Of a DNA stretch of 64,000 nt, positions 14,201 to 53,355 are shown piece by piece. The notes under the pieces were generated by a model. The model ran no database searches. It was not told where the DNA came from and was given only the letters and a program-made list of their open reading frames with translations. The stretch covers positions 8,083,104 through 8,147,103 of the forward strand of contig JAAONU010000001.1 in assembly GCA_012932295.1 (NCBI GenBank), read 5' to 3'. Each line of letters begins with the position of its first letter. The stretch's first letter is position 1. This DNA comes from Cyclina sinensis (lineage: Eukaryota; Mollusca; Bivalvia; Venerida; Veneridae). Made by a program: the position numbers and the translations under genes.

Positions 14201-17200
14201 ATTTCGCGCATTGTTACTCAGCAAATTTTTACTTTAATTTGAGATCGTAAGTCCACAACACGGCATATTTTTCACGCGCGGCGACCATGCATCACTACGG
14301 TTTTATGATAGTGTGTAGTGAAAATATGTGAAGGTCAAATTTAACGCTACTTGGTCAGTGAATAAAAAAGTCTTAGAGAACTAACATATAGAAATTTCGA
14401 TACCATATCTTAAGAAATAAAAAAAATATGAAGGTAGTGACATTATTTCTGGATCAACCCTCGTATTATCACTGTAGACTAATACTTTATTTGAAATCGA
14501 TTCCATTTGCTGAGACTTATCATAATATGTATGTGTTTGTAGTGGGAACATCGAATCTCCATCAAGATCCATTCCCCCAGACATTCATACATTCATAACG
14601 TTCGCTATCAAGAAGAAAGGACATGAGTTGATACTGGCGTTAAAACCAAGTCAAAATGAACAAACAAAAAGGACAAGAGATAAAATATTTTGAACTTTAA
14701 ACTTAGATCATACAAAGTACACTTGAAAAAAGGACTCTGAAGGAAAAGGCCATCATTCTTTTTGTGAAAATGGCATTTAATTTGAAAACATTAAACTTGC
14801 ATTTGGTCAGAAACGCTAGGTAAGGTAGGTGGTAATTGGTATATTGTCATTCATACAATAAACAGAATCTTAAGAATGAAAATAAACATTTTGTCGTCAG
14901 ATTAATATAAAGATGCCTTGTAATTTGTAAGAAAAAAAATCTGAACCTTGCGAACTTTCAAAAGGCATGGATATGAAAAAGTATTTAATTACCTTTGCTT
15001 TGCCAGAAGTTGTATCAAATCATTGTTGGCCAAGTTGCCAAGAGTAATGGCCTTAGCTACCATATTGTATTTGTTACGATTAAGTACACATTTTTTCTTT
15101 CATTCAAAAATGTCGGATCATCTCAGTCAGTCTCGTATATAACAGGCTTCCATGCTTATTTAAATGTGAACAGACAACACTATTTATCACCTTTCCTAGT
15201 AGAAAGCTCTCCACAAAAATAAAGTGACGTTCGAAATAGACAACAGTAGGTTATGTAGGCAAGTTGGTACAAATAATACCGAAATAGACAACAGTAGGTT
15301 ATGTAGGCAAGTTGGTACAAATAAGACCGAAATAGACAACAGTAGGTTATGTAGGCAAGTTGGTACAAATAAGACCGAAATAGACAACAGTAGGTTATGT
15401 AGGCAAGTTGGTACAAATAAGACCGAAATAGACAACAGTAGGTTATGTAGGCAAATTGGTACAAATACGACACTGCAGTAAATCAATTTAATAACTTCGA
15501 AAATGTTTCTATGCTGTACTAGGGGTACGTCGTTTTGGAGCTCCAAGAAACTGACGACAAACCGTCTTGCACCAGACGCTCCCTTAGTTTTTCTGCATTA
15601 CCATTTTCATCATAAATTGCTGCAAGCAGACGTCATTACCTTGGATAATGTAGTAATATGTATGTAATTCAGTTTGTAATTCAACTCATATATTGTTACA
15701 AAACAAACGCTGTTGTCATTCAGTTGTTTGTTAACTCTTTGGTGGAGGTTTGATAGCTTTAACTGTAGAATGCAGCTAATATATTACGCTACACATATTT
15801 CATAATATTTCTGATTAACCTCCGCTTCTACTAGTATTTCCTCCATATAACATGAAAAACTGAGGTGCGTTCTTCCTTAACAATCTTGACATTTTATATG
15901 TAATGGCCGTAAAATGTTTGCTAATTGTCCTTTTTAACGTGCCTTGTTGTATACTGCACCTATTAATTCAAGACGATGAAAATATTCGGATATTCCTGTT
16001 GTATTATTGTTAAAAAATTGTCTGTGCTTACCTCTTCTTCTATGGCAGTTTGTGTTCGAGTAGTCTTTTCTTATAGCCCTTTTGACTTGGACTTTATAGT
16101 GGTTTTTTTTTGTTAACCTTGGGAATGTTTGCCTGTACTGATCCTTGTTTATCACTCGTTGCAATTTCTAAATACAGTTGTTTTAGTTGATGCCCTTGTG
16201 TCTTGTTGTTGTTGTCTGAAAACTACGCTGCTCCTGTTAGAATTGTTGTTTACCATTTTATTCTGCAGTTTTATCTTTCCAGCTTGCTTATCACAAACTC
16301 TACCTTTGATTGTTTTGCTTCCAAAAGTGCTTTTAAAAGTGCAAGGTCTTTCGATAAAACAATTTCATCATAATGCACCAAAATTGTTCTCTTACATTTG
16401 CATCCCACTGTTCAACAACAGTTCTAAATTTAATATTTTTTCCTTCTGCACTCATTACAAACAATTTTTTCACGAGAGAACAATTATAAACTGAACAATA
16501 CGTTGGGTTTCCAATGGCGCCGTGCAATATTTGCATGATATACATTGCTTTTAAAAGCTCTCGTTCTATCTTTGAATCGTCAATTGCCATTTTCCCTAGT
16601 ACATGAGTTAGGACCGGTGTTAAGCACATTATTGTATTTCACCCTGTTTCTTAAAAGATTGGTCACATGATGTGAAATACTGTCATCGTCTTGAAAACTG
16701 TTTTTCTTTCCAGAACTTCTTGCAGCTGTTGTTAAGAAATGTGAATGTGTTATTTTAACGTTTTGTATGCTGCGTCAAAATATTTATGGCCAGAAATGAA
16801 GGCAATACGTTTTAGTCAGAATATTTTGTATATAGACATGAAAGAAAAAGTACAGTAGTTTGTTTTTTTGTCTGTGTTGTTTTTGTAGTTCTCACATTTC
16901 TGTTTTACATCAGCATTGAACAGCGGAATAAGGGTGCAATAGCGGTGTTGGTCAGTTTTCAATCTTTGTCATAGTCCTTTTAAAGCATTGTTTTTGTTTA
17001 AAATGTAATTAAGCTTGTAAATCATGCATTATTGTAATACTTGTTTTCATTAATTTCAGAAATGTCAAGACAAGAATTGCAACAAGAAAATTTACAGCTG
17101 CAAGGGCAGGTGCGAGAGTTACGTCGTAAATGTGCAATTATACGGGACTTGATAGATAATCTTCATAAAAACTATGAGATGTCGAAAAGGGCACCTTTGA

Positions 17201-25007: not shown

Positions 25008-25221
25008 GACCTGTTTGAAATTCAAAATTGGCCTGAGATGTGAGTACTTTATTTTCTGTATTATCCACGGAACGTTTGAGATGATTTTCTAGTGTATGTC
25101 GATTTAGAGCGAAAGGCAAATAAAATCAATATTACGATAATCAATATAACGATGCTTTTGTTCTAAATGAATAAAGGCTAAGTCTAGGCAAAATTGACAG
25201 TGAGTTCAGTCAGAAGTAGCA

Positions 25222-25377
25222 GCAGAAATAACAATAAACCAGCCTATTTCAGTCAGTCATGCAGAAATAACAATAAAACAGCCTATTTCAGTCAGTCATG
25301 CAGAAATAACAATAAACCAGCCTATTTCAGTCAGTCATGCAGAAATAACAATAAACCAGCCTATTTCAGTCAGTCAT
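25222..25377. repeat. 39-bp minisatellite, 4 copies
   Basis: Four tandem copies of a 39-bp unit starting GCAGAAATAACAATAAA and ending TTCAGTCAGTCAT. Duplication copy A holds only one unit (21453-21491), so the array expanded after the duplication. Confidence 0.95.
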
Positions 25378-26829
25378 GCATTTGATCATTATCATTATTA
25401 CATTTATCAACAGACTAACATTATTTAAGTTCTATGATCTTGAATAATTTTTCAGATTTATTTCAGATATGATCATTTCAATAGCATATTTACTATTTGA
25501 AAAAAGTGTTTCCTGCTGCGAATGCAGGAAGTTTGCAAAGAATAGATATCCATTAAATTATATATCAACGACAGTATAAATTTCGCAATTTCTTTTAAGC
25601 AATTTCAGGATGACAAATTTACCTTGTCTGCCATCTTTCATAAACTCAGCAAGAAAGAACCTGATACAAGCAGTGCAAGATAAACAAATCTGCTTATTGC
25701 CATCCGGGAAATCTCGAGTCATCGGTTGTCATAGACACCTGCTGTGACGTAAAATTTAAAAAAAAAAACTACGTTCTCTTTGGTGTGCTTTTGGAATAAG
25801 CCTTAATAAAACCAGCAAACAGATTTCATATCAAAGGAAGTTGATTTGGAATAAAAATTCTATTAGTTTCAAGTTAAAAAACTGACAAGGCTAGGCATTG
25901 TACAATTTTATTGAATGCTCATCAAAGTAAACAATTAAAACATTTAGATCATTGGACAAGAAGCGTATAACAATATTGTGTAATTTCGTTTTGTACAAAG
26001 TTTGTTTTATTAGTTCCTGCGCCAATACAAAATATAAATCATAAACTACAAATTATTATACTAAATGACATCAGAATTGTCATTAATTATGCATCAGTCT
26101 AAATAAATTCAAATAATGTGTACATAGTGTAAATAAACACTATTCAATTCATATTTACACACTTACTCTATTGAAAATATTCGTACATTATTTTGTCTAT
26201 TTTTTTATTTTTGTCTATTGAAAAATACTTATAGTGATTACTTGCTTTGTACTTTGTGTTTTTTCTGCGGAGTAATTTGTGCGGCTTCAGGAGTGTAGTA
26301 TTTGATCACTCCGCGGGAAGAACAAATGCAGTTATCTCAATTCTAAGCAAACACTGAATATGCTTCAAATAAAATTGAAACAATTAGAAAACAATAAAGT
26401 AAATTTCAGTGAATTGATTTGGAAATTACCGGTAATAACTTAAGTACTGTTTTTCAAAAAATACTATTAAAACGTGACTTTTATAAGTAAGATTCTCGAC
26501 CTCTTCCTGTACAAACATGTATATAGTCCATGTTATTTCATATTTCAAATTTGTTACACACCTGGAATATTAAAAAACAAGACAGTCTGCCCCTGCCACA
26601 GTAGAACATTGGAATGGATAACGAGTGTGAAGAGAGAAGGTTAGACCTCCTAATATGACATAGGATAATGATTTCTATTGAAAATAGGCAGGTATATTTA
26701 GATCTCAAATTTGTAAATGATGGAATCATGAAGATGAAATTGCGAGTTATTCAATTGATGAGATATTGAGAATATGGAAAATTACAATAGTTAATAAGTT
26801 ATGGAGAAGAAACAAAATGCGGACTTTAT

Positions 26830-30807: not shown

Positions 30808-31796
30808 GAATTTACTGAATTTACTATATTTTTATAGAAAAGGTGAATGATTGGAGTTTCAAAAATATTTACATGCATTTGATTATTTTTTGAACAACGT
30901 CTGTGTCATTTTAATCTTAGACAACCTCTCATTAACTAAATCAAGCTTTTCTATAATCAAATAAACATTTTCATTTTATCAATGTTAAATGTTTTTGTTG
31001 CTGTTAATGACTACTCATTTGAGATTCGACAAGGCTTTCCAATTTCATCTAGCAAACGACCACTTTTACCATTTTTTCAAGAAATGTCAAATATATTGTT
31101 GTATTTTCTTTTCATTCATACCAATACATATATTGTTTTTATAGAAATTAAGAAAAAATAAACAATTTATTGAGCTGATTTTCTTACACTTAAAATTTAT
31201 AAAACAAAATTATTACAAAAACAAATTAAAATCAATAGCCTACTTTTGGTGAAATGAGTATTTGTACACACATATAGTCAATAATCGGTTAAACCTGCAA
31301 GACACCTCAATACAATCATTATTATAATTATGATATATTGCTAAATACTACGTTCAATATAATTTATCTTATTCAAAATTCATACTGAAGAAAATGACAA
31401 GATACAATTCACTGATAGAAGTTGTTCAACACCAGATATAAAGTCCTTAAGTAAAATTATAAAAAGAACTAAACTTGATCTTACATGTCTTTAAAAGTAG
31501 GGTTCATTTGTCATTTAGGTAAATCGGTTTTACCGAACGATATACATTACCCTTTCATTAATGTCCCAACTATACCTTCAACAATGCTAATAAAATGATA
31601 AATCGACATAATTATCTTTCTAATTATCCGTCTAGCAAAACAATATAATGTTCATGCGCTATATTCTGTTTTCAAAACGAAATAAGGACTTCATATCATT
31701 GACTTTCCACCGCATCTTACGAGTGGCAATTATGTCAGTTTTGTAAAGACATGAAAAGAGAACTTATTGGTCTTAATACAAACTTTGACATGAAAT
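30808..31796. other. 3' flank / probable 3'UTR of RdRP-helicase gene
   Basis: AT-rich. Read on the minus strand, an AATAAA signal lies at 31171-31166, about 630 nt after the stop codon, and is a reasonable polyadenylation signal. No other gene seen. Confidence 0.45.
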
Positions 31797-34700
31797 TCAC
31801 CGCTTCTTAGTTAATCGTCTGCCTGAGCCTTTAGAGCTGAAACGTTTCGCCTCTCTGGCTTCAATTCTGACTGGTTCGATAGCCTCCTTAAAAAGTTCGG
31901 GAGCTTCTTTTAACCAACGAGCCCAGATCTGAGAGCTAGATAACGTAGTTTTATTTCCAACGACAATCAATCCCCTCTTAGCTCTTGTTAGGAGCACATT
32001 CAATCTTTTAGAATCGTCTGAGAAACCGAGAGATGCTGTTTCATTGCACCGCACTGTGCTAACTACAATGACGTCCTTTTCCTGTCCTTGGAATCCGTCA
32101 ACAGTGCTGATCTTTACACCATTCTTTATTTTGTCTTTAAGCTTTAGCACTTGTCCTTGATATAATGTAATAATACCAATTTGGTGAACAGCAATTCTAT
32201 GTTCGCGTAAAGCTTCTTCGTCGACATTAAGTAAAACATCAATAACCTTTCCTATAACATCAACTTCTTCCTTGTTTGAGTAGGATGTTCCAGATTTTCT
32301 TTCCCTTCCGCTCACATTCACAAAGCATAGTGGTTTAGGTGATGGCCAAGGGAAGATAATACGACTTCTCTGTCCAACAGATTCTGCAGCTTTCAGTTTG
32401 TTTTCATAAAATTCCACGGATGGAAACTTCATGATATCCTGATGCATTCTGTGTTGTACATTAAGGAAACAACATTGAACCATTTTTTGGCTGCACCATC
32501 TATGAAACAATGTCGACGATAATTCAACTGTATCTGGAAGGTTAGGCGACTTGCATTCTTTTGGACATTCCTTAACAACAGGCCCAAGTTGTTTTGGATC
32601 ACCTATCATTACAAGGTGTTCGGCACCATGAATAAGACTACATAATAAAGTTGTCTCCTTGGTTTGTGTTGCTTCATCAACAAGAACAAAAGGAAATGGA
32701 ATACATTCCAATCGAGAATCTCCCGCTCCAGCACATGTCGTAAGAACAACATCCGCTGCTGCTAATACTCTGTTTATAAGTTGTGTGTTGTTATGAACTT
32801 TACCTTGTTCGTCGCGTACTTTGGCCTTTTTTGCTTCTCTATCTGCAATAATTGCTACCTGACCTTCAAGTGAAACATCGTATAAGTCGTTGTCTACACC
32901 CTCAACAGGACCAACGCGCAAGACAGAAACATGGTTTCTCAAACGGCGGGTCAGATTATCTACTGCAACATTTGTTTCAGCCACTGCAAGTATGCCTTTA
33001 TATTTCTTCATATCAACAACGTGTCTTATGATCTGACAAGCTACTTCAGTTTTTCCAGTACCAGGTGGTCCCAGAATTATACAAGCTTTCTCGATCAATG
33101 CTGACCTGATTGCATCCTTTTGACTATCGTTTAACATAACATCTGAAGACATGCATACATTTTGGGCTTCATTTTCGAGAGCATATTTGTAAGAACTTCT
33201 CGCTCTATGTGGACAGAATTTGCAGGACTGGATAACAAGTGCCAAAGTGTCATTCATTATAGTTCCTGAAACAATTTCCTTAAATGCAAAGACAATGCGT
33301 TGGAACATAACTATATTACCGATGAGATCTAGTCTCCAGTACTGAAGTTTATCCGATTTCACAGAATGCAACAAAATGTCAGGTACAGTGTTACAGATTT
33401 TTATAGATATTGCGCATGGTGCTGTGCTGAGAGTTTCTATTTGTCCTACACATACAGGTTGTTTCTCCGGTCCGTACTGATCCATATTCTGCTTCGATAT
33501 CAGGACAAACTGACCTTTGAATTTACAACGAGTTTGTTCAAGACCGCCTGTCCGGTAGAAACAAATGGTAGATATTTCCTTGTCAGCTGTGGTGTCAACT
33601 TTGAGATAAGTTATTGAAGTTTGTTTCTCTGAAGAAATATTTCTTATATTTTCATTTGTTCCCTTTTCATATTCATGCATGTGTCCCTCTATTTCAAATA
33701 ATAAATCCAGAAGATGCAAAATACCATAATTCCTAACATACAGTTGTAGACATGTTTGGTCACAGGCTACGTTTTCGCAGGAGTCTGTCGTGGCTGTCCA
33801 AGAAAGCAGAAGCTGCTCTGCAAAAATTAAAGCTGACTTCGTATCAAGGAACACAAAACTGTGCCAATTTTCCAAAACCTGTACGTACTCACTTTGAGTA
33901 ACCTGTGCAAGTGTGATTTCTAGAAGCTGAGTTTTCAGATCATTCAATTCCAGTCTACAAAGTATCGACAAAACTGAAAGCATTGCTACAGGGGCTTTCA
34001 TGACGTCTGACATGATCACAATGATTTCTGACAAAGACGTCTTCATGTCTTCTGGTAAGGAAAATGGTACAACTTTTTGTACAAGGTTGTCAAACATTTC
34101 GGTGAGAGGGTAAATAGCTTCATTCGGGACCTTCCTTGGCAACCAATTTTCTAAAACAGATCTAAATGTAAATGGATTCCCATCACAGGCAACGGTTTTA
34201 AGCCATCGACAGAGGTCTTCTTCTGAAGATAACTCAATCTCTATTTCTTTCTTTGGAAAGGCACACTCAAAATCTACCATAAAATCAGTGCCACTTCCAG
34301 TTTCTATGTCCATCTCTTCAGCAACGGGAAGATTATCGTTAACATCATATATGTCCCAGTAGGGAATGTCTCCGTTGCAGTTTTGTGCATACACTTCAAT
34401 CATCACGAATGGTGCCTTGTTAATCAATGGATGCGTTCGACCCTGCTCAAAAATCCTTCGGTAAAATCTCTGCAGGTCTACACTCAGGGCATTTCTAACT
34501 TCATCACATACACGTTTGTTCCAGTAGCCTTTCACCTTTTTCCTGTCTGTTGCATTTAACCAAACAAATGTCAAGTTTTTCTTGCGATTTCGATAAAGCT
34601 GAAACGTATCTCTTGTCAAGTCAAGAAAATATTCTTCACCAAGAATGTACTTCATTTTATACCCAAAGTGCCTGGAATAAAACAGACCTGTGATTGTGCC

Positions 34701-37577
34701 AGGGGTAACTGCTTGTTCTTGACCCATGTTCAGCTTTTCTAGTATTTGTATCTCGAGTATAACGTCATCTGGCATCTTGAATACTAGCAGTGTGTTGTCA
34801 TTTGTAGTCAGTGCTTTAAGAAGGAAACTCCAGTCAAAACTATTGTGCTTTAGGATAACATATCTTCTCCATGTGTTCAGCGGAATGTCCATTTTAAAGT
34901 AACTAAGTTCATCTTCCGATACAATGTTTGAACAATTTAGAGCATTGAGCAGTATCTTAGATGGTATTCCTTTATCCAGAGCACATATTCTTTCCTCTAC
35001 AGAAAATACTGAAAAATTCACGTCATCAGCAAAATCTTCCATAAAGAGTTCTAGTGTTTCGTTATCCGTTAGTCCATGTCTACATTCGTAGTTCCACAGG
35101 AAAAGGAATTTCTCGTATTCGGATATATTTGAATACGTTCTCTGCGCAAAATCCTGAACAAAATCTTCAGAAACACATCTATCAGCCTTTACGCTCCGGT
35201 CTACAAAACGACTTATTAATCCTGGGGTGAATTCCTCTGTAAAAGACATTGCTCTCTGGTGCATTCTGTGCCAAACGAACTTCACAGAATCAAGATGAAC
35301 TTGGTTATGCATATCATCACTCGGTTCTAAACCTTTTGGAATTTCAATTTCTTTTCCTGTTTTACTTGCGTCGATTACCTGAGAAAAAAGTTGACCAAGC
35401 CTCTCGCATTCAGTTGATTTTACCCCTTTTAAGTCCGCCCACATATTGAAGTATTTGTCAACTCTTGCTGTCAATTTTTGTGTTTCATTCTGTCTTGCGA
35501 AGTATGAAATTATCGTTTCTTCAGATATGGCAGTCATTGGTTTTGAATCTGCTCCTGGATAATCATAGGGCGGTCGGACGGATTTCGGAATTAACTGTTT
35601 GTCCCAGGTTACAAAGTACTGGTCGCCATCTAGATCAGATCCAGCTATTTCATTTGAATGTGGACGTTTACCTCTTGTGGGGAAGACTATACAGTCAACA
35701 AGATGGTGTAACTTTTCAATATCTTTGTTATCTGTTTCGTCGACGGCAGTAAGTACTCTAACATCCCCTAGCAGATAGCATGGATTCTTCAAAACTACCA
35801 CCTGGCCACGTATAGTCTTTGGATAACCTGATATTGTAAGACGAAGGAAGCACTGTCCGTACTTTAAAGTACCTGTTGGGTCACACACTCCAAATATGTT
35901 TCTAGACTCAGTAATTAGTATGTTCAACTTTTCAACCTTGGAAACCATACTAGTCTGAAGCTGTTTCAAACGTCGTTTTACACTTTCCTTTTCTTCTTGC
36001 AGTAAGTTGTCGATACCACCTACTTCATTGATACGTTGAGCCAGGTCGAACATATTTTGCCACTGTAGCATATGGATAGCTGACTCGGAATCTATCGTCA
36101 TTTTTGAAAGTGTGTTTAGGTGTTTTTCTTGTTTTTCTTCAAAGACTTCGTCCTCAATTCCAAGACCTGATAATAGCATGATAAATTGTTTGTTCAAGTG
36201 CCCAAAGGTGTATGGTTTAGAGAAATCACAAACGCCAATATAAGGGTGTTTTGTGCATTCAAATTTCTTCATAGAAGGTCTTATCATAACTGATCTATCC
36301 GGAAGTTCTCTATCCAATGCCAACACACCTTTGTATCCTTGAAGCCTAACTTGAAAAACTGCAGGTGTGTACTTTTTCTTTGAAACATCTGCGTCGACTG
36401 TAGAGGCTAGTTGTTTTGCTAACGCCTTCCCTATACCCCCACAACCATCGGTGAAGTTAAAGGTGCCGTCACGAGTTGTAATGTCTTCACTGACTACAAT
36501 ATCCTCTTCTTTTATCTTCACATCAGTTAATGTGACTCCCGAGAAGAGAAGGCCGATTCTTGCCAATCGTTTAGATACTGTCTTGATAGAATTAAAATCG
36601 CCATGTCTTTGAAGAATTTCTTTCACTTCATCACTAGTTCCCTGCCACATAAAACACTTCCTTGTTTTCAGACCACTTGCACTGCAGCCGAGGAATGAAT
36701 ACTTCAAACCATTCACGAAAACTCCACCCAACAAGATCCTCTGAGCAAATGTTGCTTTCACGCTTATGTTAAACTTCAGTAATATCATTTTTTCATGGCC
36801 TTCTTTTGAAATGAATCTGTTGGTTTCGCCGGCCTTATAACTCGTCCACTCTTGTTTCGAGGAATGTTCTGAGAGCTCTATTGTAGGAATTTCTATGAAG
36901 TTTTCTTTCTTGCATTTCTTTAAGAAGAAAGAAAAATGTGAGGGTATGATGCGATTTTCTTCTTTCAGCTTTGGATCATAGTTAAGAAGTGTTGACGACT
37001 CCAAAGGTATTTCACCTTTCATAGCTTCTTTTACAATGGAAATACGTTCTGTGATGGCCCGAGACTTTATCTCTAAAACTGGAATGTGAAATAACTGAAA
37101 AAGTTTCAGATATGTTTCTCTTACTTCTGACCACAACTCTGGCGATAATTTTAAACATTTATCATCATCGTGTTCATAATTCACAGGCCATAAGAACAAT
37201 ATCAAAGACCGTTTATACTTTTCGATGCATTCAATCACTTCACAAGTTCTCGATACGGCTTCAGAACTTCCTTCACCAATACATTTTTCCAGCAACACTA
37301 ACGCTGTGAAAATACAGTTGTCTGTTACAAACTCACGGCCTTCAATATTTACTTCCTTGCTACATTGGCTCAGTATTATATCTCTCTGAACTTCGAAAAA
37401 GTTTTGATCGTCACATCTATAGTCCATCCTACTGTTGATGCAATGTTCACTGAGTACGCTATTAGCAACATTTATTATTACTGTCTTGTCTTTAAAGTGG
37501 CGTTTGCACTGCTCTTTTAATTTTGCAATCAATTTCTTTTTACCTGCACCGGCGGGTCCACAAAATACTACGTTCAT
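31797..37577 (-). CDS. P-loop NTPase / cellular RNA-dependent RNA polymerase / SF1 helicase fusion
   Basis: A 1926-residue, single-exon protein. Residues 1-190 form a P-loop domain (G-P-A-G-A-G-K-K, 7-14) with a Lys where Walker A normally has Ser/Thr. Residues about 255-1060 are a cellular RdRP of the QDE-1/RDR/EGO-1 family: F-T-D-G-C-G-G-I (375-382), F-Q-V-R-L-Q-G (408-414), I-R-P-S-M-K-K-F (432-439), a G-D-V-R turn (604-607) and the catalytic A-G-S-D-L-D-G-D (645-652). Residues 1480-1900 are a UPF1/ZNFX1-like SF1 helicase: G-P-P-G-T-G-K-T (1503-1510), D-E-A-T-Q (1634-1638), G-D-P-K-Q-L (1659-1664), Q-H-R-M (1708-1711), V-D-G-F-Q-G-Q-E (1826-1833) and L-T-R-A-K-R-G (1863-1869). The tail is basic. 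It probably copies RNA into dsRNA for small-RNA amplification; that role is inferred. ATG 37577 has A at -3. A possible 5'UTR acceptor (TTTCAG) ends at 37591. No frameshift or stop interrupts it. Confidence 0.95.
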   Translation of the reverse strand: MNVVFCGPAGAGKKKLIAKLKEQCKRHFKDKTVIINVANSVLSEHCINSRMDYRCDDQNFFEVQRDIILSQCSKEVNIEGREFVTDNCIFTALVLLEKCIGEGSSEAVSRTCEVIECIEKYKRSLILFLWPVNYEHDDDKCLKLSPELWSEVRETYLKLFQLFHIPVLEIKSRAITERISIVKEAMKGEIPLESSTLLNYDPKLKEENRIIPSHFSFFLKKCKKENFIEIPTIELSEHSSKQEWTSYKAGETNRFISKEGHEKMILLKFNISVKATFAQRILLGGVFVNGLKYSFLGCSASGLKTRKCFMWQGTSDEVKEILQRHGDFNSIKTVSKRLARIGLLFSGVTLTDVKIKEEDIVVSEDITTRDGTFNFTDGCGGIGKALAKQLASTVDADVSKKKYTPAVFQVRLQGYKGVLALDRELPDRSVMIRPSMKKFECTKHPYIGVCDFSKPYTFGHLNKQFIMLLSGLGIEDEVFEEKQEKHLNTLSKMTIDSESAIHMLQWQNMFDLAQRINEVGGIDNLLQEEKESVKRRLKQLQTSMVSKVEKLNILITESRNIFGVCDPTGTLKYGQCFLRLTISGYPKTIRGQVVVLKNPCYLLGDVRVLTAVDETDNKDIEKLHHLVDCIVFPTRGKRPHSNEIAGSDLDGDQYFVTWDKQLIPKSVRPPYDYPGADSKPMTAISEETIISYFARQNETQKLTARVDKYFNMWADLKGVKSTECERLGQLFSQVIDASKTGKEIEIPKGLEPSDDMHNQVHLDSVKFVWHRMHQRAMSFTEEFTPGLISRFVDRSVKADRCVSEDFVQDFAQRTYSNISEYEKFLFLWNYECRHGLTDNETLELFMEDFADDVNFSVFSVEERICALDKGIPSKILLNALNCSNIVSEDELSYFKMDIPLNTWRRYVILKHNSFDWSFLLKALTTNDNTLLVFKMPDDVILEIQILEKLNMGQEQAVTPGTITGLFYSRHFGYKMKYILGEEYFLDLTRDTFQLYRNRKKNLTFVWLNATDRKKVKGYWNKRVCDEVRNALSVDLQRFYRRIFEQGRTHPLINKAPFVMIEVYAQNCNGDIPYWDIYDVNDNLPVAEEMDIETGSGTDFMVDFECAFPKKEIEIELSSEEDLCRWLKTVACDGNPFTFRSVLENWLPRKVPNEAIYPLTEMFDNLVQKVVPFSLPEDMKTSLSEIIVIMSDVMKAPVAMLSVLSILCRLELNDLKTQLLEITLAQVTQSEYVQVLENWHSFVFLDTKSALIFAEQLLLSWTATTDSCENVACDQTCLQLYVRNYGILHLLDLLFEIEGHMHEYEKGTNENIRNISSEKQTSITYLKVDTTADKEISTICFYRTGGLEQTRCKFKGQFVLISKQNMDQYGPEKQPVCVGQIETLSTAPCAISIKICNTVPDILLHSVKSDKLQYWRLDLIGNIVMFQRIVFAFKEIVSGTIMNDTLALVIQSCKFCPHRARSSYKYALENEAQNVCMSSDVMLNDSQKDAIRSALIEKACIILGPPGTGKTEVACQIIRHVVDMKKYKGILAVAETNVAVDNLTRRLRNHVSVLRVGPVEGVDNDLYDVSLEGQVAIIADREAKKAKVRDEQGKVHNNTQLINRVLAAADVVLTTCAGAGDSRLECIPFPFVLVDEATQTKETTLLCSLIHGAEHLVMIGDPKQLGPVVKECPKECKSPNLPDTVELSSTLFHRWCSQKMVQCCFLNVQHRMHQDIMKFPSVEFYENKLKAAESVGQRSRIIFPWPSPKPLCFVNVSGRERKSGTSYSNKEEVDVIGKVIDVLLNVDEEALREHRIAVHQIGIITLYQGQVLKLKDKIKNGVKISTVDGFQGQEKDVIVVSTVRCNETASLGFSDDSKRLNVLLTRAKRGLIVVGNKTTLSSSQIWARWLKEAPELFKEAIEPVRIEAREAKRFSSKGSGRRLTKKR

Positions 37578-37590
37578 CGTACTTGGGGCA

Positions 37591-37607
37591 CTGAAATATA
37601 TTCACAG
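37591..37607 (-). promoter_or_regulatory. Candidate splice acceptor in 5'UTR of RdRP-helicase gene
   Basis: Read on the minus strand, GAATATATTTCAG ends 13 nt before the ATG. It would allow an untranslated first exon upstream while leaving the whole coding region in one exon. Confidence 0.4.
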
Positions 37608-42300: not shown

Positions 42301-42517
42301 GAAGAGGCACCGTGGTCCAGGGGTAGAGCGCAGGGCTCCGAACCCGAAGGTCGCGGGTTCGAATCCCGTCCGTGGCGAGATTCTCTCACGATCTTCACAT
42401 TCCTCCAGGCTGCGCGAATACTGGTATAGAACCCAGGAAGCAGTCATCGAGCGTGATGAATCTAAGTTGTAAGAACTTGTATCGCAATCGATGTAAAATA
42501 AATGAGTCTAAACTAAA
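42301..42517 (+). mobile_element. tRNA-Arg-like SINE, complete with TSDs
   Basis: The head has box A (TGGTCCAGGGGTAGAGC) and box B (GGTTCGAATCCC) and an anticodon-loop-like CTCCGAA, which would read CCG (Arg). The acceptor and anticodon stems do not pair well, and a further 140 bp follow (TCCTCCAGGCTGCGCGAATA, then a CTAAACTAAA tail). So this is a SINE and not a tRNA gene. The bounds are confirmed by the empty paralogous site in 43925-44185. Confidence 0.9.
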
Positions 42518-46067: not shown

Positions 46068-46366
46068 CCCAATGATAGATTCAATTAATATATCACGATT
46101 ACTGTAAGCTAATTAACATATGATCATTTTCAACAGACACTTGTCGACACTTTTTTTTTCCGAAGTTGATATAAGGCTATTATGAACTAATCAATATTTT
46201 GGCAAAAGCTCCTCCCCACACCCCGAGCCGACAAGCCAAAGGGTATAAGATAAACAACTAACGCTGATTAGGCTACCTGACTCCCATCCTTCCGGGATTT
46301 TTTAAGGTTTTTGAAGATTTTCTGAAGTACTCAGAATACACAGGAAAGAGAAACCGCGGTCAATTT

Positions 46367-47112
46367 TCCCTACACCCTACATAACACTATACTGAAAACC
46401 ACAGAAAATGCAAAATACTTAGGAGTTACAATAAATAGTAACCTAAACTGGTCATCCCATATAAACAATATCACAAAGAAAGCAAAAAACAGCAAAAGGT
46501 TCATCAGACGAAATGTCAAAACACAAAACAAACAACTCAAAGAAGCAGCATAAAAAACATATGTAAGACCACAAGTTGAATACTGCTCAACCAAATGGCA
46601 TCCATGGCAAAAATATCTCACTCACAGAATAAAAATGGTCCAGAGGTCAGCTGCAAGGTACGTTCATAATGATTACCAAAATACAAGCAGTGTAACAAAC
46701 ATGATCAAGGAACTAAAATGGTCAAGTTTAAAACAAAGGCGAAACCATGCCAGCCTGGTCATGCTACACAAAATAAAAAACAAACAGGTCAATGTCGATC
46801 ACAATCACCTTACAAACACAAGAAACAGCAAATTCCTCATCCCACAATCAAAAACACAACATCATATGAACTCATTCTTCCCAAGGACTACGACTCGGGA
46901 ACGAATTACCGACCGAGGTTAAGGCTGCCCTAACTGTGCCAGCTTTTATCAGTGGACTAAACAAGTTTTATAGATTTAAAGTATTTAAAATAATTTTTTA
47001 AGTAAGATCTTATTTTTTCTTTGTTATTATCTTTTATAATTTTAATGTTCTGACACGCGCCTGCCTAGTATAGTCAGTATTGACTTTTGGCAGTAATAAG
47101 TTGAAGTTGAAG
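46367..47112 (+). pseudogene. LINE (CR1/L2/Jockey-like) 3' end with short-repeat tail
   Basis: The plus-strand translation gives the end of a reverse transcriptase and its C-terminal domain: A-K-Y-L-G-V, L-N-W-S-S-H-I, then Y-V-R-P-Q-V-E-Y-C-S, M-V-Q-R-S-A-A-R-Y-V and a K-I-K-N block. A stop near 46552 and a shift near 46920 break it. The 3'UTR ends in GTAATAAGTTGAAGTTGAAG, a short tandem tail typical of elements that end in microsatellite-like repeats. The same 3' end occurs inverted at 49268-49445. Confidence 0.8.
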
Positions 47113-47852
47113 TTTTTCTTGAAAATAAATCCGGTCAGATTTACCAGACCGGTCTCATCAATTTGATAGTCTATCAAAATTTCGTTTGTCAGAAGTTCAC
47201 TATATGCCTATCATTCTAAGAGGAAACCCTAACAAACACAAAAAAAAATAACAGGAATCTCGTGGATTGCCAACGAGAGGCGTCGCAAGGCTATGGGCAC
47301 ACCGGAAGTTATTGTTTCGAAAAAAGACACGTAAGCCTACTTGTAAATCTAGAAATTCACTTTTAAACATATTTTGAGCACTAGGCTACTTCAGAATTAT
47401 TACTGGTTATATATCTACTAGGCTACGCTATATCTGAAAATTCCATTAAGATAAAGGATAATGCCGCTTACCTAGAATTCTTGCAAAATGTATGTGCTCC
47501 AGTTGAAAATGAATTTGTTGAACAACTGATAATTTCAATACCATTTTCAAAAAACCAGCTGAGCTTTTTTCCGAAAATATGAGCAATTGTGGGAACCCAA
47601 CGTAGAACAAAAAGCGAAGTTTTCAAGATCGGAAATACCCTTAACCAAAGTAAAGTGAAATAAATTCAGTATCAAATCGAAAAGTAAAACACTATTCGGA
47701 GAATTTTTTGACGTGTTAAAATCAACAGTCTTGTCTGTTTTTCCCATATACAAAAAAAAAAAATTCTTAGCACTAAATTTTTACTTTTATTTACATAGGA
47801 TAATTTTACATGGCTATTTCCTTGCATCTGCACCGGACACACGTGTTTCAAG
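47113..47852. other. 5' flank of DDX47
   Basis: It should contain the DDX47 promoter and 5'UTR. No TATA box is convincing. An A-run at 47751-47763 lies about 90 nt before the start codon. Confidence 0.4.
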
Positions 47853-48216
47853 ATGGCTGACAGCGACGAAGAAATTTCACAGGAAGGCCAAATAAATCAT
47901 GATAATGAAAAGGAACCAGAAGAAACAGTAACTTTTAAATCGTTGGGAGTCGTAGATGTATTGTGTGAAGCTTGTGAGGGTCTCAAATGGAAGACACCGT
48001 CAAAGATACAGCGGGAGGCCATTCCTATAGCGCTGACAGGAAAGGACATCATTGGTTTGGCAGAAACTGGGTCAGGAAAAACAGGCGCTTTTGCGATTCC
48101 TATTCTACAGTCACTCTTAGATAATCCTCAAAGATTGTTTGCACTTGTGTTGACACCAACAAGAGAACTTGCCTTCCAAATATCTGAACAGTTTGAAGCT
48201 CTTGGCTCAACAATAG
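47853..48216 (+). CDS. DDX47: DDX47 exon 1
   Basis: It encodes residues 1-121 and the first base of Gly122, from the acidic N-terminus through the Q-motif, Walker A and P-T-R-E-L. The donor is ATAG|GTGGGTAAA; the alternative GT four bases downstream would break the frame. Confidence 0.9.
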
Positions 48217-51200
48217 GTGGGTAAAAATACTGGGAAAAAACTTATTTTTCTTCCTTTTTTGCTCAGTCACTCCATGAATTCACTTAATGAATGATCTGGA
48301 GAGCATTGTTTTGACCAGTTAATGAAATAGCATTTCTTTGTTTTGTCTGGACTGATTGAGTGTGAAATCAGTGGTCTATTTAGATTTTTGAAACTTTTTA
48401 TTGAAATGTAACCTGGCAGAATTAGGGACGATACGGACCATGGGACAATAAGGACCAGACGATACGGTCCAAATTTTGGGATGATACGGACCATGTTTCG
48501 GGACAATACAGACCATGTTTAAAAAATTTATCTTCTGCTAAAAAATGTATTTTGATAACTAATGTACTGACTTGGGGAGATAGGATTTTAACAAAACTTT
48601 GCTAAAACAAATAGTTTCTGCTAGTATTTTGACTGAGTAGAGTATTTTATGTTTAATTAATATGACCGTTTAACGATTAATCCCTTGATATAGACAGTAG
48701 TGAATATGATTCCCCAGCAGCCCAACCCATATTTAAGTATACATTCACAATCATTTCTGTCTATTCTCTTACATGTCATGCTGTTTATCACACCTTAATC
48801 AACACCGTTAATAGCACACAGATTAACAAATTTAAAAAGGCGTTAAATTGACGATCCACTGCAAGTGGGCATATTGTCGATCAGCGTGAAAATCTACACA
48901 CCATTCTCTTTCAATAACATGGTTGTCAAAATAACACAATTAATTTCAAAGACTTATTGGAACTTTAGAAAAAAAAAGATAATCAAAGTGTAGTAACACT
49001 GCAAAAAGCGGTTAAAAATACTCATTAGTAGTTTTTTTTCTTCAATGTACAGTAATTTTTAAAGTACCTTGTGGCCTATGGGCCCAATTTGGGACACTGT
49101 CCAAGAACTAACCATGGATAACGTTGCTTAAATTAGCAAACATTCCAGACACTCCAACCATGTCGCTAAAGAGCTAGCCCAACAGCAAGGCTGTTGGAAA
49201 TGCCTTGTATACCTGAAGTCCACTAGAGAAATATTATCTGGCTGTATACTACCTATTTTCTTGTGACTTGTTCAACTTCAGCTTATTACTGCCAAAAGTC
49301 AGTACTGACTATTCAAGACAGGAACGTTAAAATTGTAAAAGATTAAAGAAACAAAGTAAACAGGATTTTTACTAGAGATTTTACTTAAGCATTTATTGTG
49401 AACATTTAAGATCCATAAAACTTGTTCAAGCCACTGATGAAAGCAGATAGAGCTGGGAAAGAAACAGATATACACTCACTTCTACATGTGTACTAAAGTC
49501 TTAAATGCTTGTGGAAATCCTGATTTTGTCAGATAAAATGAATTTTGACTAAATCAAAGAAATAAACAAAATTGGATTGATTTCAGCTAGTACTGGGATA
49601 CAAATTTTATTTACAGTCAGTCAGTATGCATACTAATATACAAACATTAGTTAGCAATGTGTACCTATTGAACGTCGTATTTTGGAGTGAATATTAGTCA
49701 GTGCAATGACAACATAACATATGTGTGCATAGTTTACACAGTTAAACGGTGCTCTGGCTATAATCTTCCTTTCCAGTTTTGGCAATAATATATATGTTGT
49801 ATAACATTTTGATGGGGCTATACCTGGTGTAAAGAGAAAAAAGGCAGCCAAAAGTAACACCTTGTTTTCAGCTGTTTCATTAATCTCAGTGCTTCGTAAT
49901 GTTCGATACTGAACATTGTTTGGTTTTGGACTTTTTTTAGAACATACATGTTTACATTGTCGCTGTCAGATACTGACATTTGATCTATTCTGTTTCAAGC
50001 TATTTATTGACTGTGGTACATAATATAGACTCAGCTGTACAGAAAATGTACCAGGGGTAACTAATATTAACACTTCCCATACAAAATATCTGTAATGGAC
50101 TTGACCATCTTTCAAAGAATTGTACAGGTCCATTAATTGTTTATGATGGTGCTTATTGACAATGAACTGACTGAATGGTGAATAGTGCAGACCATGATCA
50201 GACTGCAAGATTGTTCAGCCTGATCTTAGTCTGCACTGGTCCCAAAGGCAGAGTCAGTTGCCTACAGCAGGATAAGGGATAATATACATGTATGGCATTT
50301 CAGAAGTTTGATATAATTCTGGTAAAAGGTTCAAATGAATTTATGGTGTCCTGTACAAGTAAATGAATTCTCATTTTGAAATGATACTATTATTTCTACT
50401 ACTACTAGGGAATACTGTTATTGTTAGACTATCATGCAAGTTCAAAGTATAATAATTAAAATAATTTTAAACATGGTGGCAGAAATAAAAAAAAAACACT
50501 TCTGCTTTAAAAGATAGTTCTGTGGTTTTGTTCAGTATTACGTAACCTGCATGTAATATTCACAGGGTAATTGTTTGGTCCAATTAAATGTCATTCAGTC
50601 CAGTCAGATTATTGCCTATACTGGTCTGAATGTCCAGTGCTTCAAAAACTTATTCATGAAGACTGCATTCAGTTTAATAAATTATTATAATTGTTCATTC
50701 AATTTTTTATTTACACCTTCACTTTGGGTAATAATTAGTTTAATATAATTCCTATTTACATGATTCTGAAGCAAATAGAATGCTATAAATTTTAGAGTAT
50801 GTCATTCTAATATAGTTCTTAATAACTGAAAGTCTTTGATAAAGATATCTGTCATCAGTGTTTTGTATTCATTACTATCAACAACAACAACAACAGTTTA
50901 TTAGCAAAAATCGACATATAGACATGCCTTTGGCTTATGATCAGCAAACTATGTACAATAAATTCAAATATCAAGGACAAGGCATTATACAAAAAGCTGT
51001 TTTCCTTCAATTTCTTCAGGTGTAAAATGCTGTGTGATCGTTGGAGGTATTGACATGATGAATCAGGCTCTAATACTTGCCAAGAAACCGCACATCATAA
51101 TCGCAACACCAGGGCGACTTGTGGACCACCTGGAGAATACAAAAGGTTTCAACTTGAGAGCTCTCAAGTTTCTTGTGATGGATGAAGCAGACAGGATCTT

Positions 51201-53355
51201 AAATATGGACTTTGAAGAGGAAGTGGACAAAATACTGAAGGTGACGAGTAATAAGGCTTTTATTGCCATAAAATGGTAGTTGTCTTATGCCATTGCAGTC
51301 TGCCAAGTAAGTCCAAGGCCAAATGCTCATGAATTTCTCTTCAGGGCCACAAACAGCCAAACCATAGGCTGTTAGCATTACCAGTAGTGAACATGGCCAT
51401 GGGTCAAATTACTTGAAAATGACAATTATTTTTCAAAAATTCTAGGAGAATTGTTCAAATATGTATTTCAGATGAAATGAAAATTCTAAATACTTAGTTT
51501 TACTTCCTAGTGGCAAGCTGCCAACATCATATTTAGTCAATTAAGATCAGTGATGTAGGTTTAATTCACTATGTTAATGCAAAAACCCAACCATTTCAAT
51601 GGGATGCCATCTTGTCTTTATCATCATACTTTAGAAAAGCTGAAAAACTTTAACATGCAGTGACAAGATGTATTCTTTAATTTTAAGCATCTTCATTTTG
51701 GGCTTATGAAATATTATTTGTGCTTGTAGCCTATCCACGCTCTAAAACACAAATGGCATAAACGTCAGAATGTTTTTAATACAGTGACTGCTATTATTAT
51801 TGCTTTTATCATTATTCACGTCTACTTAAACCCTGAACATGCTGAAATTTTGTAATGGATTTGCCCAGCTGTGAATTAAGAACAGTCCATTCAAAGTTTA
51901 AGGGATTTCAATATCAAAATACAAAAATGGAGCTACCAACAGTATAGAGCCTGGTGTGACTGCACAGATGCAGGCTGAACTGGCTCTATACTGGTGGCAA
52001 AGGCTGATCACTTTCAGTTCCAGCAGGTTAAGGGTTAAAAGTAGAAATAACTCTACATCTCAGTTCATTACTTTGCACAGTAAATGCTTAGGATTCCATT
52101 CCTGAACTTTTTTTACCTTGCATCATGATTAAGGGCTGTTGTTTCAATATGTATAACCTTATAAACTCTATGAAAAGAAGTTGGCACCTTGTTATAGAGC
52201 ATTGATATCTATCTCTAAACTAACGTTTAGTTACATGTAACCAATGCTTGTCTGCAACAGTGGTGTTTCAGTATCTTAGGATGAGAGAACTTTACCAAAA
52301 ACAATAGGCTTGGTAGATTGGTAGGCTAGAAGACAATTGGATATTCACAAGTGATTTTCCTTTTGTCATTTTGTGAGCAGTTTCAGAGCACTATAATTTA
52401 TTCTAAAAAAAGTGTAAACTTTTCGTTAGTACTTGTAATTTACATTCAGTTTCATGTCAGTGATGTTGCAGAAGACATAGGCAGGAAAAGTCTATTTCAT
52501 ACGTTTAAATATCTGCCTATATATGTTATGTTTTGAAGTTCTGAATTTCTGTATAAAGTGTTATTATATGAAATTTTCCAGGTGATACCCAGAGAGAGAA
52601 GGACATATTTGTTCTCTGCAACTATGACAAAGAAAGTTGCAAAATTACAACGGGCATCATTAAAAGAGCCAGTGAAAGTGGAAGTGTCGTCAAAATACCA
52701 AACAGTGGAGAAGCTTCAACAGTACTATATCTTTATTCCTGTCAAGTTTAAGGATGTGTATCTTGTATATATTTTGAATGAACTAGCAGGTAATTCCTTC
52801 ATGGTATTTTGTGCAACATGTGCTAACACGCAAAGGGTGGCACTCATGTTGAGGAATTTAGGTCTAATGGCAATCCCACTGCATGGACAAATGACTCAAG
52901 CCAAACGACTCGGTGCTTTGACAAAATTTAAAAGTAAGTCTAGATCGATTTTGATAGCTACAGATGTAGCAAGTAGAGGACTTGATATTCCACATGTGGA
53001 CGTTGTTATTAACTTGGATATACCTACACATTCAAAAGATTACATTCATCGTGTGGGCAGAACCGCAAGAGCTGGTCGAGCCGGAAAATCTGTTACGTTT
53101 GTCACTCAGTATGATGTCGAACTGTATCAAAGGATTGAGCATCTGATTGGGAAACAGCTTCCGTTGTATAAAACAGAGGAACAAGAGGTGATGTTGTTGA
53201 TGGAACGTGTTTCAGAGGCGCAGCGACACGCAAAGCTGGAAATGTCAGAGGGAACAGGAAAGAAAAGAAAACACCGACCTCAGCAGGCTGAAGATGATAC
53301 TGAGGAATCAACCGGAGTCCGAAAAAAATTGATGAAACGCAAAAAACACTATTAG
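47853..53355 (+). CDS. DDX47: DDX47-type DEAD-box RNA helicase (join 47853-48216, 51020-51240, 52582-53355)
   Basis: A nucleolar ATP-dependent RNA helicase; the family (yeast Rrp3) acts in pre-18S rRNA processing. The spliced product is 452 residues, close to the roughly 455 of vertebrate DDX47. Order of motifs: a Q-motif region with F-K-S-L-G (28-32) and P-S-K-I-Q (49-53); A-E-T-G-S-G-K-T (70-77); P-T-R-E-L-A (102-107); T-P-G-R-L (151-155); D-E-A-D (176-179); S-A-T (207-209); then, in the second RecA domain, [15 protein letters not shown] and [10 protein letters not shown]. The C-terminus is Lys-rich (K-K-L-M-K-R-K-K), a likely nucleolar signal. Intron 1 (2803 nt) is phase 1 and intron 2 (1341 nt) phase 0; both are GT-AG. 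ATG 47853 has a purine at -3 and G at +4. ATTAAA at 53617, followed by a GT-rich stretch, is a likely polyadenylation signal. Confidence 0.96.
48217..51019. other. DDX47 intron 1
   Basis: It contains short GATACGGACCATG repeats at about 48430-48520, an inverted LINE 3' end at 49268-49445, a TGCAGACCATGATCAGACTG-type dispersed repeat at about 50185-50275 and a CAA run near 50880. Confidence 0.8.
49268..49445 (-). pseudogene. Truncated LINE 3' end, inverted
   Basis: Read on the minus strand it runs from CAGTGGCTTGAACAAGTTTT to TTTTGGCAGTAATAAGCTGA and GTTGAACAAG, matching the last roughly 180 bp of the LINE at 46930-47112. It is a heavily 5'-truncated insertion inside DDX47 intron 1. Confidence 0.75.
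51020..51240 (+). CDS. DDX47: DDX47 exon 2
   Basis: The acceptor is TTTCTTCAG at 51019. It encodes the GG motif, T-P-G-R-L and the D-E-A-D box, ending at Lys195 before a GTGACG donor. Confidence 0.9.
51829..52037 (+). mobile_element. MITE-like repeat in DDX47 intron 2
   Basis: About 209 bp with imperfect inverted ends (AACCCTGAACATGCTG and the inverse of CAGCAGGTTAAGGGTT). A second copy lies inverted at 59988-60201 in an NCX intron, with shared internal words such as TATAGAGCC and CAAAAATGGAGCTACCA. Confidence 0.8.
52582..53355 (+). CDS. DDX47: DDX47 exon 3
   Basis: The acceptor is ATTTTCCAG at 52581. It carries S-A-T, the whole second RecA domain and the basic tail, ending in TAG at 53353-53355. 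Confidence 0.95.

Follow-up and report, generated by a model that had tools for sequence, protein, structure and literature searches.

An RNA-dependent RNA polymerase joined to a UPF1-superfamily SF1 helicase in Cyclina sinensis: an intact, widespread and partly described architecture

Does a single gene of the clam Cyclina sinensis encode both a cellular RNA-dependent RNA polymerase (RdRP) and an SF1 helicase, and what might such a protein do? The window, which is the whole stretch of 64,000 nucleotides analysed, is AT-rich (30 to 40% GC). Its minus strand carries at 37577..31797 a single intronless open reading frame of 1926 amino acids (P0001), which runs from an ATG at 37577 to a TGA at 31799-31797 with zero internal stops. 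Upstream the frame is bounded by an in-frame TGA at 37604-37602, the plus strand across 31797..37577 has stops throughout, and the window holds three frames in all of at least 150 amino acids that start with ATG, GTG or TTG. At the base composition of the window, 1926 stop-free codons have a chance of about 10^-63 which, with the intact frame and the landmark motifs, rules out a frame artefact. The start agrees to within one residue with those of relatives, the first methionine of the Mercenaria homologue aligning one residue ahead of that of the window, and the predicted Mercenaria protein shows 63% identity with 100% of the query covered. By eye, a possible splice acceptor (tatatttcag, 37591..37600, minus) lies upstream of the ATG and suggests a putative 5' non-coding exon, and an AATAAA at 31166..31171 (minus) is a possible polyadenylation signal.

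The surroundings of the gene are those of animal nuclear DNA, since genes in exon-like pieces lie on both flanks. Lying 5' of the RdRP gene are exon-like frames of a DEAD-box RNA helicase (47799-48224, 50962-51279 and 52537-53355, plus), and this gene (47799-53355) is presumably DDX47-like. Exon-like frames of a Na/Ca exchanger are at 60926-61195 and 61711-62001 (minus; Pfam Na_Ca_ex, E 2.6e-13 and 0.0078). A contaminant or viral origin is countered by these animal genes and by contig scans: at least 600 stretches of viral contigs gave at least one locus, matching the helicase part only at 24% identity, and 121 stretches of prokaryote genome contigs gave one locus, again the helicase part only, at 26% identity.

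A mobile-element framing of the gene was rejected, as only short repeat pairs (16 to 21 nucleotides) flank it, a class often due to chance. Elsewhere in the window, a mariner/Mos1-type transposase (12852-14101, minus; HTH_48, Transposase_1 and DDE_3 matches) is split over two frames and is therefore probably a dead copy. ARAGORN placed a tRNA-Arg (CCG) at 42306-42377 (plus), with a modest Rfam score of 34.6 bits; it could be a true tRNA gene or a tRNA-derived repeat. Frames at 46326-46922 (plus) resemble by eye the tail of a non-LTR retrotransposon reverse transcriptase, and a Pfam scan of the frame at 46554-46922 gave no match. Short tandem repeats at 15180-15597 and 25204-25428 read as repeated peptides.

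The chain consists, in order, of a degenerate NadR-like kinase, an RDR2-like RdRP, a probable TLDc-like part, a helical region, a 1B-like barrel and an SF1 helicase. This order is established, as are the catalytic motifs of RdRP and helicase, the folds of these two and of the kinase-like part, and the conservation of the chain. The sequence-only reading had placed a cellular RdRP and an SF1 helicase in one frame, and it was right: every landmark it named lies at its residue, and Pfam matches both enzymes. Two modules had escaped it: an N-terminal AAA_28 P-loop at residues 3-178 and, at 883-1008, a stretch weakly resembling TLD.

The N-terminal domain (residues 1-215; 36933..37577, minus) has a P-loop kinase fold like that of NadR ribosylnicotinamide kinase and thymidylate kinase, and its Pfam AAA_28 match has an E of 3.3e-7. 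It shares with NadR ribosylnicotinamide kinase the fold and, by family profile, a common DDG.R stretch. Unlike NadR, however, it is degenerate in both the Walker A and DR motifs: Walker A (37536-37559) is GPAGAGKK, which fails GxxxxGK[ST], and the DR of relatives is DN in the window. Because Walker A has lost its K[ST] step, this domain probably binds or scaffolds in C. sinensis rather than phosphorylating. Walker A in the form GxxxxGK[ST] is kept in 47 of 74 proteins with the kinase domain, truncated entries included.

The cellular RdRP core (PF05183, residues 265-760; 35298..36785, minus) is matched with an E of 3.7e-114 and 383 bits, against a cut-off of 23.8. The catalytic DLDGD (residues 648-652; 35622..35636, minus) occurs once in the protein and forms invariant columns in an alignment of 26 proteins (A1); the catalytic motif is retained in 84 of the 85 long members of the family. 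In sequence, plant RDR2 is the closest match to this RdRP (E 5.8e-65), with QDE-1 far behind (E 2.3e-5). It is predicted to copy single-stranded RNA into complementary RNA.

Behind the polymerase there is probably a TLDc-like domain, tentatively placed at the beta-rich residues ~883-1066 (34380..34931, minus) from Pfam TLD and Foldseek. TLD is the sole Pfam family that matches 883-1008, at an E of 0.051 and 13.9 bits, under its cut-off of 24.5; it was matched in 7 of 13 family members (best E 0.0032). Foldseek, for a model whose range is not given, matched TLDc structures 4acj (E 3.1e-4, TMt 0.67) and 7obp (E 3.6e-4, TMt 0.60). A 13-member profile run against PDB sequences gave zero matches at E ≤ 10, and TLDc fell outside the 50 rows of VIA-align, which is uninformative in either direction. 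Of seven further proteins scanned whole at E ≤ 1, only P0147 matched TLD (E 0.022), the domain being absent at this threshold from fungal P0084, P0174 and P0209, crinoid P0167, P0135 and rotifer P0161. In P0147 the weak TLD match lies behind the RdRP, and this protein and P0137 represent RdRP-only clusters (844 and 444 member sequences, respectively). The match to plant RDR2 ends by model residue 813 in six of seven rows and reaches 913 in one, so that the TLDc-like matches appear to fall behind the part that plant RDR2 matches.

In the models most of the link between the enzymes (residues ~1060-1480) is folded, confidence being low at ~1077-1102 and ~1456-1475, and relatives have this link too. 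AF2 models it as an all-helical region (~1103-1307; 33657..34271, minus; mostly pLDDT > 90), which is its least conserved part, and beta strands at the position of the UPF1-family 1B domain (~1320-1420; 33318..33620, minus). The latter strands span model residues 246-319 (1321-1394 of the protein), and the structural match to UPF1 and IGHMBP2 covers them.

The SF1 helicase (residues 1478-1893; 31899..33146, minus) comprises RecA1 and RecA2 with motifs I, Ia, II, III, IV, V and VI, and has a UPF1-like fold. Pfam matches AAA_12 (E 7.5e-55) and AAA_11 (E 4.5e-36), and GPPGTGKT (1503-1510), DEATQ (1634-1638), VDGFQGQE (1826-1833) and LTRAKRG (1863-1869) occur once each. Sequence matches rank UPF1 first (1.4e-58), then SEN1 (3.2e-42), SMUBP2 (2.1e-30) and ZNFX1 (3.7e-27), as does a family profile (406, 324, 283 and 274 bits). 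The helicase belongs to the UPF1/IGHMBP2/SEN1 superfamily, but is neither UPF1 nor ZNFX1. It is not UPF1 because the CH domain is lacking: PF09416 is missing from the best 25 of 30 Pfam rows (E ≤ 1), the other five ranking below E 0.064, and the RdRP part fills the place where a CH domain would precede the helicase. It is not ZNFX1 because there is no room for zinc fingers, only ~33 residues following the helicase core; NFX1-type fingers are missing from the same best 25 of 30 rows. Of the earlier label 'UPF1/ZNFX1-like', the UPF1 superfamily stands and ZNFX1 in the narrow sense does not.

The distribution of the architecture was followed in a set of 358 proteins, made up of P0001 and the best 120 each of 418, 314 and 2683 hits, with three rows shared; counts are of the listed proteins, not of nature, and the named relatives are gene predictions. 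Searches took proteins of 0.55 to 1.75 times the query length, so those with RdRP or helicase pieces favour single-domain and truncated entries. With domain models built for this set, RdRP was found in 212 of the 358, the helicase in 258 and both in 112, with RdRP before helicase in 112 of 112. Kinase, RdRP and helicase occurred together in 62, always with the kinase first, and the kinase domain never occurred without an RdRP (74 of 74 proteins, the set having been collected for likeness to the clam protein). Among the best 120 of 418 hits, the full chain as in the clam was found in Mercenaria, Mya, Dreissena, three Mytilus and the anemone Actinostola, and RdRP with helicase also in a diatom, fungi and a bdelloid rotifer (P0090, whose helicase is incomplete in the entry). 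The second search, which took shorter proteins, added the crinoid Anneissia and more fungi; the named fungal fusions in the set are without the kinase domain. Other bivalves, in which the sequence-only reading had proposed to look for it, do carry the fusion. The idea of a bivalve peculiarity falls, as the 112 proteins include those of animals, fungi and a diatom. A large RdRP-helicase group (P0016-P0079) includes many proteins whose kinase domain bears an intact Walker A and DRGP.

Some entries bear on whether relatives are truly single chains. Contigs of the full-chain proteins P0003, P0007 and P0012 (6516, 7141 and 6471 bases) extend merely 0.8 to 1.4 kb beyond the coding sequence and look like transcripts, which favours a single chain. 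Counting against it are a Dreissena isoform (X2, P0128) of 474 amino acids with RdRP only, and the RdRP entry P0122 and helicase entry P0242, which both give 1,015,685 as the longest contig and probably lie apart on one contig.

Identity to the Mercenaria protein is 59% in the kinase-like part, 69% in the RdRP core, 70% in 760-1065, 51% in the helical region, 63% in the 1B-like part and 74% in the helicase; to the anemone protein the values are 26, 55, 43, 22, 30 and 53%, respectively. By these identities, the enzyme parts are the most constrained.

The RdRP tree was built from 201 rows, namely 199 of the 212 RdRP-matching proteins (covering at least 55% of the model) and two plant RDR2 segments, and was rooted on RDR2. 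The window groups with Mercenaria and then with Dreissena and Mya (eight rows, 0.996). These bivalve rows lie inside a group with Mytilus and the anemone (0.861), which the diatom joins at 0.944, and fungal RdRPs, fused and unfused, form another group. Kinase-bearing rotifer proteins fall outside both the animal/diatom and fungal groups, so the kinase was either ancestral and lost in fungi, or gained repeatedly. In the same tree, 30 RdRP-only proteins branch with crinoid and sea-spider RdRPs.

In a FastTree phylogeny of 236 of the 258 helicases (80% of the model; 90 fused, 146 not), all 90 fused helicases fall in one group of 96, of which the other six are helicase-only, with a weak support of 0.267. 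A Cryptococcus helicase (P0333), whose best PDB match is UPF1 with ZNFX1 lower, may be sister to the fused group, as FastTree places it (0.73). IQ-TREE phylogenies under a mixture model used 68 and 66 hand-chosen rows, with HELZ2 omitted from the second and Fgrdrp5, discussed below, absent. The animal/diatom type forms one clade of 19 rows, three of them entries without the kinase domain (support 93 and 97), and the fungal type one clade of nine (99 and 100). The nine UPF1 rows make up a separate clade (SH-aLRT 100), without fused helicases. In the free IQ-TREE trees the animal and fungal helicase types stand apart, the fungal type once beside HELZ2 (90). Constraining the animal and fungal fused helicases together changed the likelihood by +13.3 (p-AU 0.775), and constraining fused helicases with UPF1 by +10.97 (p-AU 0.702); the latter was not rejected, and the trees allow more than one deep order. 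Of the trees proposed earlier for each domain separately, that of the RdRP places the window with bivalves, and those of the helicase unite the fused forms weakly or split them. RdRP and helicase distances correlate with an r of 0.951 over 90 proteins, as expected if the two halves travelled together. A single origin of the RdRP-helicase fusion is allowed by these trees.

What the protein does can be proposed from its parts. We put at roughly 60% the probability that it synthesises RNA, aided by its helicase, for a dsRNA pathway in the broad sense, whether of silencing or of antiviral defence. The RdRP would copy single-stranded RNA into complementary RNA, and the helicase would strip proteins and structure from the template; alternatively, the helicase may trail the growing strand and peel it off, freeing the template for reuse. 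UPF1-type helicases move 5' to 3' on RNA. As the RdRP would travel 3' to 5' on its template, such a helicase could either clear it head-on or follow the new strand and release it. The fusion would hold both enzymes at one site, with the helicase serving the RdRP in cis, and the dsRNA or antisense product may feed the pathway. Silencing is favoured as that pathway by the fused protein Fgrdrp5 of Fusarium graminearum, since in the accessible part of the report its deletion lowers 21 to 25 nt 5'-U reads by ~32%, a partial loss (PMC11237814).

The self-contained small-RNA amplifier predicted by the sequence-only reading is so far supported neither by this partial loss nor by animal data, and the latter favour a role outside siRNA amplification. 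In the available excerpts, RdRP1-3 of Nematostella are induced by poly(I:C), as are RIG-I-like receptors (RLRs) (PMC8476169, PMC12768352), and secondary siRNAs were not detected (PMC12768352); evidence for antiviral RNAi in bivalves is described as limited and RNAi as of limited antiviral importance (PMC6466128). Virus-derived small RNAs were not found in a sea anemone and, at 26 to 30 nt, are present in a gastropod without an identifiable RdRP, according to the portion consulted (PMC6085071). The protein may accordingly be an antiviral or innate-immune maker of dsRNA: by copying viral RNA it would set off RIG-I-like or other dsRNA sensors, and its helicase and TLDc-like parts would direct it to viral RNA or to endolysosomal membranes. 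In line with this, one oyster RdRP transcript was raised in some herpesvirus-infected samples (PMC6466128) and interferon induces the mammalian TLDc protein NCOA7-AS, which is antiviral (PMC8005160), as given in the text at hand. However, the siRNA support by Fgrdrp5 points the other way, the TLDc assignment is under its Pfam cut-off, and the induced Nematostella and oyster RdRPs may or may not belong to the fused family; we regard this alternative as possible but distinctly less probable than RNA synthesis for a silencing or dsRNA pathway in the broad sense.

A bolder and improbable version supposes that animals kept a pre-animal four-module RNA replicase as an antiviral dsRNA maker outside siRNA amplification. 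Its NadR-like domain, with motifs intact in many relatives and worn in bivalves, would sense a nucleotide or RNA 5' end, the RdRP would make dsRNA, the TLDc-like part would tie it to the V-ATPase-bearing membranes through which viruses come in, and recycling of the template would fall to the SF1 helicase. If true, it would explain why RdRPs persist in animals without secondary siRNAs.

The helicase could instead be the main activity, in UPF1-like RNA surveillance (decay or RNP remodelling), with the RdRP secondary. UPF1 is among its best matches by sequence and structure, the tree joining fused helicases to UPF1 was not rejected, and the Fgrdrp5 interaction network as excerpted includes NAM7 and an NMD factor (PMC11237814). 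Yet no CH domain was seen among the best 25 of 30 Pfam rows, UPF1 keeps a clade of its own, and the polymerase motif is retained almost throughout the long members, which makes this quite improbable. That the gene is a recent retrocopy, a horizontal acquisition or a decaying copy without function in C. sinensis is the most remote reading, for although its coding region is intronless beside exon-like genes, its distribution is patchy and its Walker A is lost, the frame is intact and close to that of Mercenaria over its whole length, its RdRP groups with those of Mercenaria, Dreissena and Mya, and the repeat pairs around it are short and often chance.

The fused protein matters because the role of RdRPs in animals beyond nematodes is an open question, which it makes testable. 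In the single-chain protein of fungi, bivalves and an anemone, each activity can be killed separately in one gene, and a trigger and a location might be traced through the kinase-like and TLDc-like modules. The fusion is no invention of clams, and it may have been concealed in annotation by generic 'AAA domain' labels. The protein architecture is real, intact, widespread and partly described; what is new is the dissected animal variant, whereas the kind itself is known.

RdRPs paired with an SF1 helicase are known as separate proteins, Hrr1 with the RdRP in S. pombe and ZNFX-1 with EGO-1 in C. elegans, whereas the clam protein is a single chain (PMC9276528, in part). The clam helicase scores nearer to UPF1, SEN1 and SMUBP2 than to ZNFX1. 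RdRP and helicase in one polypeptide are also described, in the accessible text, for Dictyostelium RrpA-C and RDRs of oomycetes, Hydra and Nematostella (PMC3661229, PMC4791657). The helicase of those RDRs, however, is of the DEAD-box type (SF2), and N-terminal in oomycetes, in contrast to the C-terminal SF1 helicase of the clam (PMC4791657); the clam protein has no N-terminal SF2 helicase and carries the NadR/TMK-like P-loop domain there instead.

Among animals, bdelloids have on average 38.9 RdRP copies, and the word 'helicase' has zero occurrences in the text available (PMC7943196). In the literature searched, mostly outside subscription journals and with terms other than NadR kinase, we met no kinase-RdRP-helicase protein and no account of the helical region or 1B-like barrel; a TLDc-like part in a cellular RdRP, sought by name, was not met among the best 10 of 7,775 records. 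The supposition that a bivalve version may be undescribed does not extend to the kind, of which two proteins are already in print. The first, Branchiostoma lanceolatum BL02069, is likewise an animal eukaryotic-type RdRP with AAA_12, which stands in a legend note alone; 'helicase' has zero occurrences in the amphioxus text, in which Pinzon et al. raise, as speculation, a function apart from RNAi (PMC6396948, in part).

The second, Fgrdrp5 (FGSG_09076), may be an orthologue of the clam protein, to which it is likened by its described domain order (PMC11237814, in part). It is fungal and, unlike the clam protein, has no NadR-like kinase domain in the description available; it was placed 'in a separate branch', and its deletion reduced ascospore discharge to 47.6%. 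As in the clam, its RdRP shares one chain with, and precedes, a helicase (DEXDc, 1277-1478) and AAA_12 (PF13087, 1475-1677), so that a fungal protein of the same RdRP and helicase architecture is already tied to siRNAs.
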